60,371 bases of DNA from Protofrankia sp. CiT1 (GTDB lineage Bacteria; Actinomycetota; Actinomycetes; Frankiales; Frankiaceae), in contig NZ_CAKJTL010000172.1 of NCBI RefSeq assembly GCF_917627385.1, positions 960 to 61,330 of the forward strand. Direction: 5' to 3'. Positions within the stretch are counted from its first letter, which is position 1; every line of letters begins with the position of its first letter. The position numbers and the translations under genes were made by a program. This document shows positions 18,499-44,241 of this stretch, piece after piece. The notes under the pieces are model-generated. The model was not told where the DNA came from, made no database searches, and worked only from the letters and a program-made list of their open reading frames with translations.

Positions 18499-19431
18499 CT
18501 ACAGACTGGCCACATCCGCCTGCTTGACCCGCACAGCCTCGGCCGCGGTGACGAGCGCGGCTTTCTCCGCTGCCGAGAGGTCAATTTCCACGACCTTCTT
18601 CACACCCCCGCGGCCTATCTGGGCAGGCACGCCGAGATAAACACCGGAAATACCGAACTCACCGTTCACCCAGGCGCACACCGGCATGACCGCGCCGGAG
18701 TCCTCTGCCACAGCCTTCACCATCCGAGCGGCGGCGGCGGACGGCGCGTAGTAGGCCGACCCGGTCTTGAGGAGGGCGACCACCTCGGCACCACCGTTAC
18801 GGGTCCGCGTGACCAGATCATCGATCTTGTCGGCGGGCAGCAATTCCGCGAGCGGCCTGCCGTCCACCGTGCACTGGGACGGAACCGGCACCATGGTGTC
18901 GCCGTGCGAGCCCAGGGTAAGGGTCTGTACCGACCTCACCGGCACTCCCAGTTCCACCGCGACGAAGTTGCTGAAACGAGCGGTGTCGAGCATGCCGGCC
19001 TGACCGATGACCCGGTTACGGGGAAACCCAAGGACATTCGCGGCGAGCGCGGTCATCTCGTCCAGCGGGTTGGAAACCACTACGACGACCGCGTCGGGTG
19101 AAGATTTCGCGATGTTCTCCGAAACCTGCCGGACAATCTTCGCGTTGACCTCAATGAGGTCCATCCGGCTCATGCCGGGCTTGCGGGGCAGGCCGGCGGT
19201 GACGACCACGACGGCCGAACCCTCGGTATCGCCATAGTCGTTTGTTCCGATCACCGTGGTCTCGAAATTCTCGACTGGGCGCGACTGATTCAGATCGAGA
19301 GCGATGCCCTGGGGCTTGCCCTCGATAATGTCGGTCAGGACAACCGTGTCGAAAATATCGTACTCGGCGAGGCGCTGCGCGGTCGTGGAACCATAGAAAC
19401 CGGCTCCGACCACAGTCACTTTCCCAGCCAT
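18499..19431 (-). CDS. mdh: Malate dehydrogenase
   Basis: The 310-residue enzyme has the NAD site KVTVVGAGFYGSTTAQRLAE with Asp at the end of the second strand (VVLTDIIEG). The substrate Arg loop is GLPRKPGMSRMDL, distinguishing malate from lactate dehydrogenase. VVSNPLDEMTALA and the catalytic LGSHGDTMVPVPS (His) follow. It interconverts malate and oxaloacetate in the TCA cycle. Its length is that of the LDH-like MDH type used by many actinomycetes. Seven bases upstream lies the stop codon of a decayed isocitrate-dehydrogenase-like gene, suggesting the pair was once an operon. Confidence 0.94.
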   Translation of the reverse strand: MAGKVTVVGAGFYGSTTAQRLAEYDIFDTVVLTDIIEGKPQGIALDLNQSRPVENFETTVIGTNDYGDTEGSAVVVVTAGLPRKPGMSRMDLIEVNAKIVRQVSENIAKSSPDAVVVVVSNPLDEMTALAANVLGFPRNRVIGQAGMLDTARFSNFVAVELGVPVRSVQTLTLGSHGDTMVPVPSQCTVDGRPLAELLPADKIDDLVTRTRNGGAEVVALLKTGSAYYAPSAAAARMVKAVAEDSGAVMPVCAWVNGEFGISGVYLGVPAQIGRGGVKKVVEIDLSAAEKAALVTAAEAVRVKQADVASL

Positions 19432-19437
19432 CGGCTG

Positions 19438-19606
19438 TCAGCTCCCCAGCTTCTCGATGATAGCGTCGGCGCGCTCCGCCGTCCCCACCGCGGTGGAGCC
19501 GCACGGGTCGGCTTCAGGTCGTAAGCGACACTACGCCCTTCCGCAATGACCAGCCCGCCCGCAATGGCCGGCGCGACGGCCTGATCCAGCTTCCCCGCCG
19601 CTCAGC
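19438..19606 (-). pseudogene. 3' remnant of an isocitrate/isopropylmalate-type dehydrogenase gene
   Basis: No intact gene exists here, but the minus strand encodes LDQAVAPAIAGGLVIAEGR and SVAYDLKPTRAAP in one frame and TAVGTAERADAIIEKLGS plus stop in the next. Joined with one extra base they read like the C terminus of a decarboxylating beta-hydroxyacid dehydrogenase (KPTR..PTAVGT..ADAIIEKL). That suggests a single-base deletion. The N-terminal 300 or so residues are missing, replaced by the DUF3017 gene region. The identification rests on remembered family sequence and is moderate. Confidence 0.55.
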
Positions 19607-19609
19607 CGC

Positions 19610-19912
19610 TCAGCTCCCGGGTGGCACCGTGAGCGTCACAACAATGATCATCAATCCGAACACGCCAAGTGTGGTGACATCGAACGCCCTGCTCCGCGCC
19701 GCAAGTAGCCCCACCCGCCGAGTCGGCAGCACCATCCGCAGAAACGCACCGGCAAGCAGCACCGCTCCGAGGCCGACCAGGCCCTGCCGCCAGTGACCAG
19801 CCACGACGAACAGCAGGGCGAGACCGACAGCGCCGAACATACCGGCGAAGACCGGCTCCCGCCGCAGCCATGACCGCCATCGCGACACGGACTGGCGGTG
19901 CCGCAGACTCAT
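19610..19912 (-). CDS. DUF3017 small membrane protein
   Basis: The 100-residue protein starts at ATG 19912 with a basic segment (SLRHRQSVSRWRSWLRRE). Three hydrophobic segments follow: FAGMFGAVGLALLFVVAGH, GLVGLGAVLLAGAFLRMVL and a C-terminal FDVTTLGVFGLMIIVVTLTV. LPTRRVGLLAARSR links the last two. This matches DUF3017, an actinobacterial family of unknown function usually found between folD and mdh or icd. Here the neighbouring folD is absent and icd is a remnant. Confidence 0.8.
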   Translation of the reverse strand: MSLRHRQSVSRWRSWLRREPVFAGMFGAVGLALLFVVAGHWRQGLVGLGAVLLAGAFLRMVLPTRRVGLLAARSRAFDVTTLGVFGLMIIVVTLTVPPGS

Positions 19913-20291
19913 GACAGCGTGGCCAGCACACGCCCGATCAGCCGTCCGATGCTCGCTCGCCTCCCACCCGTACGCGGGAGCCGACCCGCTCACCCCCGAC
20001 CATAGACGCAGGTGGGAAACGGCGCGAAAAATCGCGATCACACGCTGATCGACTTCCCAGCCCACGGCGAGAAGCCACTGTCCGGCTACCGGCCCGCGTG
20101 CGACGCATCGAGAAGAATGTGCCTGGCGGGCGCGGAAGTGGCCTACGCACAGCGTAGAAACCCCACCAGGCATCCTCAACCTCACGATCGCCGCACCGGA
20201 TTCACAATCGTACGGACCCCCCGGGCGCGGACACCGTGTGCAACTAGGGCAGACTTCCGCCGCAAGTCCCCGGAGTGGGAGGGAGCGGGCC

Positions 20292-20669
20292 GTGGCAGAC
20301 GAAACGCCACACAGCAAGAAACTGCAGGAGCTGATGTTCCGGGCTTGGGAGACCTTCGGAGATGCCCGACATCTCGACAGCGACGACCGGGTGTTCGTCC
20401 AGGCTCTCGCACGGCAGACGGCAGACAGGATCTCGGTCCTGTATGGCGCCAGCTGGCGGGATGCACTGGACTGGGTTGCGCAGCGTTACGTACCCAACGA
20501 CGACGCACCCGGTGGTTCCATCCTGGCGTCATCGAACGGCAGCATGTCATCGAATGGCACCACGTCGTCGAATGGCACCATGTCGTCGAACGGCACCACG
20601 TCGTCGAACGGCACCACGGCGAGCGCGCGACGAAGCGTGGCAGCGGCGGAGTCCACCTCCATCTTGTGA
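20292..20669 (+). CDS. Hypothetical protein with a Ser-Ser-Asn-Gly-Thr repeat tail
   Basis: A GTG at 20292, behind GGGAGGGAG, opens a 125-residue frame. The first 75 residues look like a folded helical domain (KKLQELMFRAWETFGDARHL, DDRVFVQALARQTADRISVL, ASWRDALDWVAQRYVP). The next 30 residues are a six-residue repeat, SSNGTT or SSNGTM, encoded by an 18-bp DNA repeat. I do not recognise the family. The good ribosome site and a sensible N-terminal domain argue for a real gene. It runs opposite to purH and the DUF3017 gene, where folD would normally be found. Confidence 0.6.
   Translation: MADETPHSKKLQELMFRAWETFGDARHLDSDDRVFVQALARQTADRISVLYGASWRDALDWVAQRYVPNDDAPGGSILASSNGSMSSNGTTSSNGTMSSNGTTSSNGTTASARRSVAAAESTSIL
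20529..20618. repeat. Five tandem 18-bp repeats
   Basis: Units resembling TCGTCGAACGGCACCACG occur five times head to tail (20529, 20547, 20565, 20583, 20601), differing at a few bases. They are in frame and encode SSNG(T/S)(T/M). This is a coding minisatellite; there are no spacers, so it is not a CRISPR array. Confidence 0.9.
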
Positions 20670-20785
20670 AACGTTGGTGTCGTCCGGCCAGTCACAGCTG
20701 ACCCGGACGGCGCCAACGAACAGGCACACAGCAGCTCCATCACCACGGTGTGGCCGGGCTTCACGGGCTTCGGACGCCGACATTA

Positions 20786-20876
20786 GAGCGACCGGCAACA
20801 GGGGGACGCGGCGTCGCGGAGCTGGGGCACACGCCCCAGCCCGCTCCTTGATCCGCACCTCTGTTGCCAGGTGCTC
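20786..20876. mobile_element. Inverted-repeat element, family 1 copy B (91 bp)
   Basis: It begins GAGCGACCGGCAACAGGGGG and ends CTCTGTTGCCAGGTGCTC, the near-complement, with the inner pair GCTGGGGC and GCCCCAGCCCGCTCC. The first 15 bases equal copy A with one change. TTA precedes it at 20783-20785, but the right flank (CAG) does not repeat it, so one flank has mutated or recombined. It lies between the 20292 gene and purH. Confidence 0.68.
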
Positions 20877-20926
20877 CAGATGAACAACGATCATCCGAAT
20901 AACGCCTGAATAACGCCCGGATGACG

Positions 20927-22603
20927 TCAGTGCGCGAAGTGGCGGACGCCGGTGAAGTAGAGCGTTATCCCCGCTTCCCGCGCGGCGGCTATTACCTGCT
21001 CGTCACGCACGGATCCACCCGGTTCGACAACCGCGCGGACACCGGCGTTGATGAGCACCTGCAAACCGTCCGGGAAGGGGAAATAGGCGTCACTCGCGGC
21101 CACAGCTCCCTTCACCCTGTCACCGCCACGGCTCACCGCGAGCATCGCGGCATCGACCCGGTTCACCTGCCCCATACCCACGCCGATCGTTGCGCCGCCC
21201 AGGGCGATCAGAATCGCGTTCGACTTGACGGAACGGGCTGCCTTCCAGGCAAAAACAAGATCATTTAGTGTTGCCTCATCGGCAGGCGCGCCAGCCTTCA
21301 GCGTCCACCCCGACGACCCGTCGCCAGCCGTGTCCAGCACGTCACGGGACTGCAGCAACAGCCCACCGGAGATCTGCCGCATTTCGACCCCGTGCGGATC
21401 CATCGGCAGCGGGCACTCCAGCAGCCGGATCGAGGGCTTGCGGGAAAGGATCTCCTCGGCGCCTTCGGCATAGCCAGGCGCCACAACGACTTCGGTGAAT
21501 ATCTCCGCGATCTGTTCGGCCAGGGCGACGCTGACGGGCCGGTTCGTCGCGATAACCCCGCCGAAAGCGGACACCGGATCACATGCGTGCGCCTTGCGAT
21601 GAGCATCGGCAACGTCGCTGCCGATGGCCAGGCCGCATGGGTTCGCGTGCTTGACGATGGCCACGCATGGCTCGTGGAAATCACCCGCGGCGCGCCGGGC
21701 CGCCTCCGCGTCGGTGTAGTTGTTGAACGACATCGGCTTGCCGTGCAGTTGCCGGGCACCCGCGAGCCCGGGCCCGCCGTCATCCGCCACATACAGCGCG
21801 GCCCGCTGGTGGGGGTTCTCGCCGTAGCGCAGGACCTCCGCCCGCCGCCAGAGCGCCGCTACCGTGTCCGGCCAGCCCGACTCCCGGGCGATCTCATCGG
21901 GCGCCAGAACGCCGGCGAACCACGACGCGACCGCGACGTCGTACGCGGCGGTGTGCGCGAAGGCGCGGGCGGCAAGCCGGCGCCGCGCCGCGAGCTCGAA
22001 ACCACCAGCCCGGATCGCGGCGATCAGCTCCGGATAGTCCGCCGGGGAGACGACCACGGCCACGGAGTGATGGTTCTTCGCCGCGGCGCGAATCATCGCC
22101 GGCCCGCCGATATCGATCTGTTCGATCGCCTCGTCCTCGGACGCGCCGCCCGCGACCGTTTCCCGGAACGGATAGAGGTTCGACACAACGAGGTCGAACG
22201 GCTCAATGTCGAGTTCCGCGAGCGTCTTGGCGTGCTCGACGTCGCGCAGATCAGCGAGGAGGCCGGCATGCACGCGTGGATGCAGTGTCTTGACCCGTCC
22301 GCCGAGAACCTCGGGGAAACCGGTGAGGGTGCTTACGGGCGTCACAGCCAGGCCATGGCGAGCGAGCACCTGTGCGGTGGATCCGGTGGAGACGACCTCC
22401 ACCCCGGCATCGATGAACGCGTCCGCGAGGTCCGGCAGGCCGGCCTTGTCGTAGACGCTGACCAGAACACGGTGGATGGGACGCCGGCCGGTGGTGACCA
22501 GCGCCCCGCCGGCTGATGGTGCCGGGCCGGTGTGCGGGAAGGCCCGTGCCCCAGCCGTCGAGTCACCGGCGGTGGAGGCCTGCTGATCCTGTGTGGACGT
22601 CAT
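20927..22603 (-). CDS. purH: Bifunctional AICAR formyltransferase / IMP cyclohydrolase
   Basis: The 558-residue enzyme performs the last two steps of IMP synthesis. After a 40-residue variable leader, the IMP cyclohydrolase (MGS-like) domain runs [20 protein letters not shown] to about residue 180, with [19 protein letters not shown] and [12 protein letters not shown]. The AICAR transformylase domain follows, with the hallmark [18 protein letters not shown] and a C-terminal [20 protein letters not shown]. Length and ending fit the family (about 520 residues) apart from the leader. Its ATG overlaps the stop codon of purN, so the two are coupled. Confidence 0.96.
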
Positions 22604-23175
22604 GTCCCCTCCTCCGACCGGATGATCCGGCCGATTGTCGCCACGTACAGGACACGTTCCACCGCCTGGATACGGGTACGCAGAGTTTCCTCAGTGTCGG
22701 ACTCCTCCACCGCTACGACCGCCTGCGCAAGGATCTGCCCGGTGTCGACGCCCTCATCCACCCAGTGGACCGTCACTCCGCTGACCTTGACGCCGTACGC
22801 AAGCGCGTCGGCGACGGCGTGCGCTCCCGGGAACGCGGGCAACAGAGACGGATGCGTGTTGATCGTCCGAAATCGGGCGATCACCTGTTTGTCCAGAATT
22901 TTCATGTAACCAGCGAGCACCAACAGATCCGGAGCGTATAGGGAGATCCTCGCCGCGGTGGCCGCGTTGAAAGCCGCTCTGTCCAGCGCGTCCTCCAGGC
23001 GGACGACGAACGACGGGACGCCGGCCGCCGCCGCCCGGTCCTGTGCTCCGGTGCCGTAGCGGTCCGCGCCCACGGCAACAACTTCCGCGCCGAAATCTGG
23101 ATCTCTGCACGCGTCCAGTACAGCCTGCAAGGTGGTACCCACCCCGGAGGCGAGAACAACCAGTCGTGCGGGCAC
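22600..23175 (-). CDS. purN: Phosphoribosylglycinamide formyltransferase
   Basis: PurN transfers a formyl group from 10-formyl-THF to GAR. The start GTG 23175 has GGAGAG seven bases upstream and gives [20 protein letters not shown], the family N terminus. A longer open frame to 23334 lacks support and would overlap the neighbouring gene. Catalytic Asn and His are in [12 protein letters not shown], and Asp is in [14 protein letters not shown]. The protein has 191 residues, normal for PurN. It is followed with a 4-bp overlap by purH, forming a purine operon. Confidence 0.94.
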
Positions 23176-23279
23176 GGAACTCTCCGGTACGACAGGTCGG
23201 CGGTGGCTCGCCGGTGGACGTATGACCGTTCCGACTGTACTGAGGTCTACCGGCCCGCGCGCATCAACCAGCCGCCCGG

Positions 23280-23756
23280 TCACAGGACGGCTTCGGTCGC
23301 CCCCCTCATCGTCGGTATCTCCGGCTCCGGACACGGATCCTCCCGTTCAACGCGGTAGCCCGCGGAACCGGGCTCGCGAGCCGGCTCGCCCACAGCATCG
23401 TCACAACCAGTGTCGAGACGGCCGAAATCCTCCCCGTCAAGAAGGTCGCCGGGCCGGCAGAGATACAGCTCGGCGAGCCGCACGAGCGTCTGGGTCGACG
23501 GCGCCCGCCCACCTCGACCGGGCCAGACCTCCCAGTAGGAGAAGGATTTTCCCGTCTTCGGGAGACCTTCCCCGGACCACCGTGCGTTCCATCGGCAGGC
23601 TGCCTCCTCCTGCGTCCAGCCGTGCGCGAGCCGGAAGGCGACTCGCGCGTTCAGGCGATAGCGATGCTGCCACTCCAGGGCGATGCGCCGATAGGACCAG
23701 CCGAGTGCCCGCAGGCGCCCCGACTCAGCCCGCAGCCCAGCGACGCTGACAGCCAT
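23280..23756 (-). CDS. Helix-turn-helix protein (Cro/XRE-like, actinobacterial type)
   Basis: The start is ATG 23756, preceded by GGGGAGG. The 158-residue protein has the segment GWTQEEAACRWNARW, a helix-turn-helix-like helix pair, then SFSYWEVWPGRGGRAPSTQT and LVRLAELYLCRPGDLLDGED, a Cro/C1-like ending. This arrangement, with RIALEWQHRYRLNARVAFRL before it, is common in Streptomyces and Frankia regulators of unknown target. It lies upstream of purN on the same strand with a gap of about 100 bp. Confidence 0.7.
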   Translation of the reverse strand: MAVSVAGLRAESGRLRALGWSYRRIALEWQHRYRLNARVAFRLAHGWTQEEAACRWNARWSGEGLPKTGKSFSYWEVWPGRGGRAPSTQTLVRLAELYLCRPGDLLDGEDFGRLDTGCDDAVGEPAREPGSAGYRVEREDPCPEPEIPTMRGATEAVL

Positions 23757-43869: not shown

Positions 43870-44189
43870 GATCGGACGATACGAGCTGGTCGTGGCGCAG
43901 ACGCCGGAGTCCGAAAGGCTGCCAGGTCGTACCGGGTCAGCGCCGGTCACACAGTCAGATCGGAGCATGGGACCTGATCCTGCCGCACCCCGGTTGAAAC
44001 CTGGGCACTGGGTCCTGGTCAACACGTATCCAGGAGATCAAAAAAGGGAGTTTTGTTCCCTGCATCGTGCATTGTCACCCGTTGTTCTGACGCTCGGCAC
44101 GGCCACCGGAGCAGGCGATCACCGAGACCGGCCAGGACGCCCTCGGCCGGGCTGCCTGGATCCGCCGGGACGGCCCAGCGAACCATGAG

Positions 44190-44241
44190 CGCACGCATCC
44201 CAGCCCCGCTCCTTGATCCACGCCTCTCTTGCCAGTCGCGC
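44190..44241. mobile_element. Family 1 half-element copy C at a gene end
   Basis: CCCCGCTCCTTGATCCACGC and the run CTTGCCAGTCGCGC match the right half of copy A (CCCGCTCCTTGATCCACACC, ATTGCCGGGCGCTC). TAA follows at 44242-44244. The left inverted repeat is not visible, so this is probably a truncated copy. Read on the minus strand, TTA then G at its edge supply the TAG stop of the gene at 44241-46796. Confidence 0.5.

Follow-up and report, generated by a model that had tools for sequence, protein, structure and literature searches.

Why does the region between purH and mdh in Protofrankia sp. CiT1 hold no folD, and why does only a broken tail of an isocitrate dehydrogenase gene (icd) stand in front of mdh? 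A preliminary description of this DNA proposed a deletion with insertion and expected folate and TCA functions to be supplied from elsewhere. In our opinion (we give it a probability of about 0.85), a dimeric icd was displaced by an unrelated monomeric isocitrate dehydrogenase (IDH) and then decayed, its ends being kept for mdh, and folD was likewise replaced.

The purH-mdh region of CiT1

Protofrankia is cluster-2 Frankia, root-nodule bacteria that are close kin of Frankia. The CiT1 genome comprises 5.02 Mb in 191 contigs, and the window, the whole stretch of DNA that was analysed, covers 60,371 nucleotides of one of them. Read along the minus strand, the window has purN, purH, DUF3017, the icd remnant and mdh in this order; a small hypothetical gene lies on the plus strand between purH and DUF3017:

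18499-19431, minus strand: mdh, malate dehydrogenase (TIGR01763), intact; NCBIfam equivalog MalateDH_bact, 386.6 bits against a cut-off of 351.85
19438-19601, minus strand: icd 3' remnant (dimeric, PF00180 family, about codons 319-365 of 366), frameshifted; from alignment and tblastn
19610-19912, minus strand: DUF3017 gene (PF11222, E 7.8e-20; domain about 19628-19840), start codon inferred
20292-20669, plus strand: small hypothetical gene of no known family, present in 24/24 loci of genera g1, g2, g4, g6 and g7
20527-20618, plus strand: 18-bp tandem repeat, 5.1 copies (TRF), encoding SSNGT/M units in the tail of the hypothetical gene
about 20780-20880, plus strand: MITE-like hairpin repeat with 62 genome matches and a computed hairpin
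20927-22603, minus strand: purH, ORF of 558 aa, with homologues in 34/35 family genomes
22600-23334, minus strand: purN, from its ORF and from tblastn synteny in relatives

The mdh gene is intact and conserved. It is 94% identical to that of Ca. Frankia meridionalis Cppng1 (G003), 94% to that of Ca. Frankia californiensis (G001) and 89% to that of Protofrankia coriariae BMG5.1 (G002), and the comparison with G003 gives dN 0.028 and dS 0.527. As a separate matter, the purN of G003 (L004, 6452-7724) appears as two pieces about 550 bases apart, through either an insertion or an assembly gap.

The spacer from the DUF3017 stop to the mdh start has 178 bases. Of these, 123 align with an intact icd at 90 identical positions with one gap, for a score of 107, while none of 300 dinucleotide shuffles does as well (maximum 43) and the reversed and complementary icd score 28 and 37. 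The remnant also aligns with that of Ca. F. californiensis. Its stop codon lies at 19438-19440, its reading frame is broken near 19496, and tblastn with the intact icd extends it to 19601 in two frames, so the frameshifted icd-type tail that had been noticed before mdh is indeed there. The ribosome-binding stretch of mdh sits in its final bases. If we take the 366-aa actinobacterial dimeric IDH (Iso_dh, PF00180), whose gene adjoins mdh, as the known system, the CiT1 remnant matches its last ~47 codons in the same position before mdh; unlike that gene, it has no start, no promoter-like box and no catalytic body, and its frame is broken.

It could be argued that the remnant is an assembly artefact and that icd is really intact, since the genome is in 191 contigs and the assemblies of two neighbours carry runs of N. 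We consider this very improbable. The window has no N at the position of the remnant, a search of the whole genome found no PF00180 member besides a gene that is leuB-like as judged by eye, and differently shaped remnants occur in 11 spacers of separate assemblies.

Gene order in relatives and the folD position

The order purN-purH-folD-DUF3017-icd-mdh, of the kind that had been described for actinomycetes, does exist in the family: in G018, from another Frankiaceae genus, all six genes are open. Of 35 family genomes, only G018 has this kind of icd intact. In a survey of the class, this icd was held by 18 of 393 sampled genomes, with mdh next to it in all 18, and the class icd genes show 77-82% identity (G018 itself aside). 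Among 73 named loci outside Protofrankia and Parafrankia (L037-L109, where several contigs end early), folD of the purH-linked type lies near mdh in 56 and icd in 2. Hence the placing of icd before mdh is ancient though patchily distributed, and folD commonly precedes DUF3017. In several of the class loci a citrate synthase-like gene, judged by eye, lies just upstream (for instance L037 1759-3069 and L038 3520-4647); together with DUF3017-icd-mdh it makes, in these outside relatives, a three-gene Krebs-cycle cluster inside a purine/folate neighbourhood.

No folD was found between purH and DUF3017 in CiT1, as the preliminary description had said, and the gene that it saw there instead, with a repeat in its tail and a mobile repeat nearby, is present as described. 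That gene is no peculiarity of CiT1. It occupies the folD position in all 24 Frankiaceae loci read outside g3, that is in five genera, which makes the loss of folD from here old and family-wide; none of the 73 loci L037-L109 has it. Its core of about 65 residues is near-invariant between genera and its low-complexity tail varies, so that it probably encodes a strongly constrained protein specific to Frankiaceae. The core (20292-20540 and homologues) is better conserved than purH, for which the between-genus figure is 75-80%. We found no Pfam or NCBIfam match above cut-off, a single chance match (E 0.4) in a PDB sequence search and no match in a plasmid search with the core. An AlphaFold2 model from 8 rows has three helices at a mean pLDDT of 50.7, a confidence too low for its Foldseek search against the PDB, which returned no match, to be informative. 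In several g2 loci and two g6 loci the next gene is FHA-domain-like by eye.

The repeats are a different matter. The 18-bp array is expanded only in the CiT1 species among five Protofrankia, the others having a single SNG unit. The hairpin repeat folds at -64 kcal/mol (z -6.7) and is dispersed in many copies, some of its 62 matches being two halves of one longer element; it has no match in the same gap of four congeners beyond a 10-base chance hit. Further copies in the window are at 2011-2056 with 2164-2212 and at 44189-44235. In many copies the two halves are separated by roughly 110-160 bp; this points to two forms of the element, a long one with sequence between the halves and a shorter one such as that at 20780-20880. 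It resembles MITE-type hairpin repeats, which carry inverted terminal repeats with a target-site duplication and have a cognate transposase, in being about 90-100 bp long, dispersed and strongly hairpin-forming; it is called MITE-like here from its copy number and hairpin.

That both functions are supplied elsewhere was correctly anticipated. The single folD of CiT1 is on contig C107 (PF02882, 194.6 bits, an open frame of 275 aa), beside a cyclodeaminase-like gene as judged by eye, and its product is 41% identical to the purH-linked FolD of G018. A folD was found in 34 of the 35 family genomes, the exception being G020, which is 63% complete. The single monomeric IDH, on C93, is equally intact (PF03971, 1250.6 bits over positions 1-733 of 734, an open frame of 739 aa). 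It belongs to a sequence family unrelated to the dimeric IDH; from its family we take it to catalyse the same reaction, with NADP. The monomeric enzyme is present in 34/35 family genomes, and the sole exception is G018, the genome with the intact icd. Judging from the encoded genes, neither the folate nor the IDH function of the Krebs cycle is missing from CiT1 because of the mdh locus.

Decay of icd in Protofrankia and Parafrankia

Debris of icd is present in all 11 DUF3017-mdh spacers that have an mdh (5 Protofrankia, 6 Parafrankia), and in each case 0 of 300 shuffles is as good. The forms differ. G001 retains icd nucleotides 1-152 and 786-1085, G003 nucleotides 1-144 and a short end; G002, G004 and the Parafrankia retain start and end, and CiT1 the end only. 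There are at least four distinct deletion structures; we do not count five, because the remnant length of 207 nt that G002 shares with four Parafrankia comes with junctions too strongly diverged to judge whether they represent one deletion.

This bears directly on the proposal that CiT1 alone lost folD and most of icd, in a recent local deletion that came with an insertion of mobile DNA. Part of it stands: the hairpin repeat, the 18-bp expansion and the deletion of the icd start together with the box upstream of it are local to CiT1, the last being seen in no other of the 11 spacers. However, the swap at the folD position is old, which contradicts a local event for that gene, and icd is broken in four congeners too and is debris in all 11 mdh-bearing spacers of the two genera. 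Alignment with relatives returned the same gene in the folD place in every locus read outside g3, and icd debris of differing form. As an account of the whole locus we find the local event unlikely.

The remnants do not seem to be of one age. We compared them with intact icd by codon position, over 72-144 bases and not as a formal test: the G003 start differs at 7.6, 3.9 and 22.0 sites at positions 1, 2 and 3, intact genes among themselves at 6.0, 3.8 and 21.6, and G001 is intermediate at 6.1, 7.8 and 21.4, while the remnants of G002, G004 and Parafrankia show a clear excess of change at positions 1 and 2. Since the G003 start differs from icd as intact genes differ from each other, its icd probably died recently. 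The purH tree branches off g4, then g1, then g6, g2 and g7, with 89-93% bootstrap at the deeper forks and one fork drawn open. Tree and ages together would fit several separate losses of icd once the monomeric enzyme had been gained. The assemblies of G003 and G001 contain gaps, with runs of N in the genes examined, and for this reason we rejected two apparent lesions, a monomeric IDH broken in two pieces in G003 and a truncated mdh in G001, as runs of N.

Do the remnants still encode anything? One may suppose that the stub, or the short frames that the deletions created, encode a small functional peptide or act as a translated coupling leader for mdh. Indeed, six of the ten remnants that keep the start (G001, G002, G022, G023, G024 and G025) are open from icd start to stop. 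Against this, the other four are frameshifted, the CiT1 stub has no start, and the bodies of sister remnants change about alike at the three codon positions in all six pairs with at least 19 differences (8/9/8, 12/15/12, 11/11/13, 8/10/11, 12/12/10 and 7/7/5). On these counts we rejected the mini-frame as a functional peptide, and we think it improbable that the remnants owe their persistence to such coding; translation as such, without a conserved product, may occur. The stretch 19438-19601 is, in our judgement, a pseudogene of a dimeric icd: it shows sequence descent, synteny and a broken frame without coding constraint, this last taken for the CiT1 stub from the codon-position counts in sister remnants.

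Signals for mdh and the course of displacement

What is conserved in the remnants is found at their ends. In Parafrankia the mean identity is 94% in the 65-nt leader and 91% in the last 40 nt, compared with 83% in the remnant body and 60% in the 70 nt further upstream. The leader contains a box, TA[AG]CCT, and TAnnnT is the usual actinobacterial -10 form. We chose the pattern after viewing 23 of the sequences counted here, and 8 of 11 previously unseen intact loci have it. Within 160 nt upstream of the icd start it is present in 10/10 start-keeping remnants (0.14 expected from shuffles); it also precedes the intact icd in 14/17 cases (0.23 expected) and the g7 monomeric IDH in 6/7 (0.22 expected), compared with 5/71 outgroup mdh genes (1.37 expected). 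Its distance varies from -38 to -121, and from -205 to -227 in g7. Most simply, the leader and the end can be read as a predicted promoter and ribosome site of mdh. CiT1 has no such box either in the spacer or in the 1.5 kb that precede mdh on the same strand. An mdh of this type was not found (E 1e-60) in 23 of the 35 family genomes, belonging to g2, g4, g5 and g7; thus the gene is not indispensable to the family.

Genus g7, which is probably Pseudofrankia (as g2 is presumably Frankia), presents another arrangement. In all seven g7 loci read, the monomeric IDH gene lies directly after DUF3017, in the icd-mdh position, and is 81-83% identical to the C93 protein; an eighth genome, G034, is outside this count, its purH being at a contig end. 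The monomeric gene is thus off-locus in CiT1 and in the icd slot in g7.

It seems reasonable to propose the following course. The ancestor of Frankiaceae would have had a dimeric icd immediately 5' of mdh, with its own promoter, and the folD of the purH cluster would long since have given way to a distant folD at another site. The gain of the monomeric IDH, a different protein family, would have made the dimeric icd redundant; we found no genome with both enzymes intact, so this redundant stage is one that we infer. Loss of icd would have followed, probably several times. In Protofrankia and Parafrankia deletions would have removed its body but spared leader and last codons, since mdh, as we propose, draws its promoter and ribosome site from them; in g7 the slot would have been taken by the monomeric gene itself. 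CiT1 would be the most advanced case, a deletion between the stop codon of DUF3017 and approximately codon 319 of icd having taken the promoter-like box as well and left a 3' stub, and its mdh would now be transcribed by read-through from DUF3017 or from a new promoter.

A more specific version of these ideas treats the locus as a regulatory shell. Leader and last codons of icd would be selected as mdh signals while the body was deleted in several Protofrankia and Parafrankia lineages, the g7 monomeric IDH behind the same predicted promoter would be an in-place swap between non-homologous enzymes of one reaction, and CiT1 would have discarded the shell. We regard this version as evenly balanced between true and false; if true, the CiT1 mdh must depend on another promoter.

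The displacement and decay of icd that we prefer belong to a familiar kind. In non-orthologous displacement and in the pseudogene decay of symbionts, as in CiT1, a redundant gene of a reduced genome decays once it has a substitute; for Ca. Frankia datiscae Dg1, 325 pseudogenes are reported (PMC4447401). What sets the icd case apart is that the ends of the dead gene are conserved, and they apparently serve the following gene as leader and ribosome site. Among the titles listed by full-text searches on Protofrankia/Frankia isocitrate dehydrogenase and icd-mdh pseudogenes we found no description of the icd remnant locus. The icd case is the ordinary fate of a redundant gene, unusually legible, and a fresh example of non-orthologous displacement with repeated decay.

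For the organism, this removes the worry that folate or Krebs-cycle functions were lost through the CiT1 locus, and a role as mdh signals offers a simple candidate reason why the dead icd ends persist. For this family of nitrogen-fixing plant symbionts, it lays out a series of stages of displacement: icd intact, recently dead, gutted, reduced to a stub, and replaced in place.
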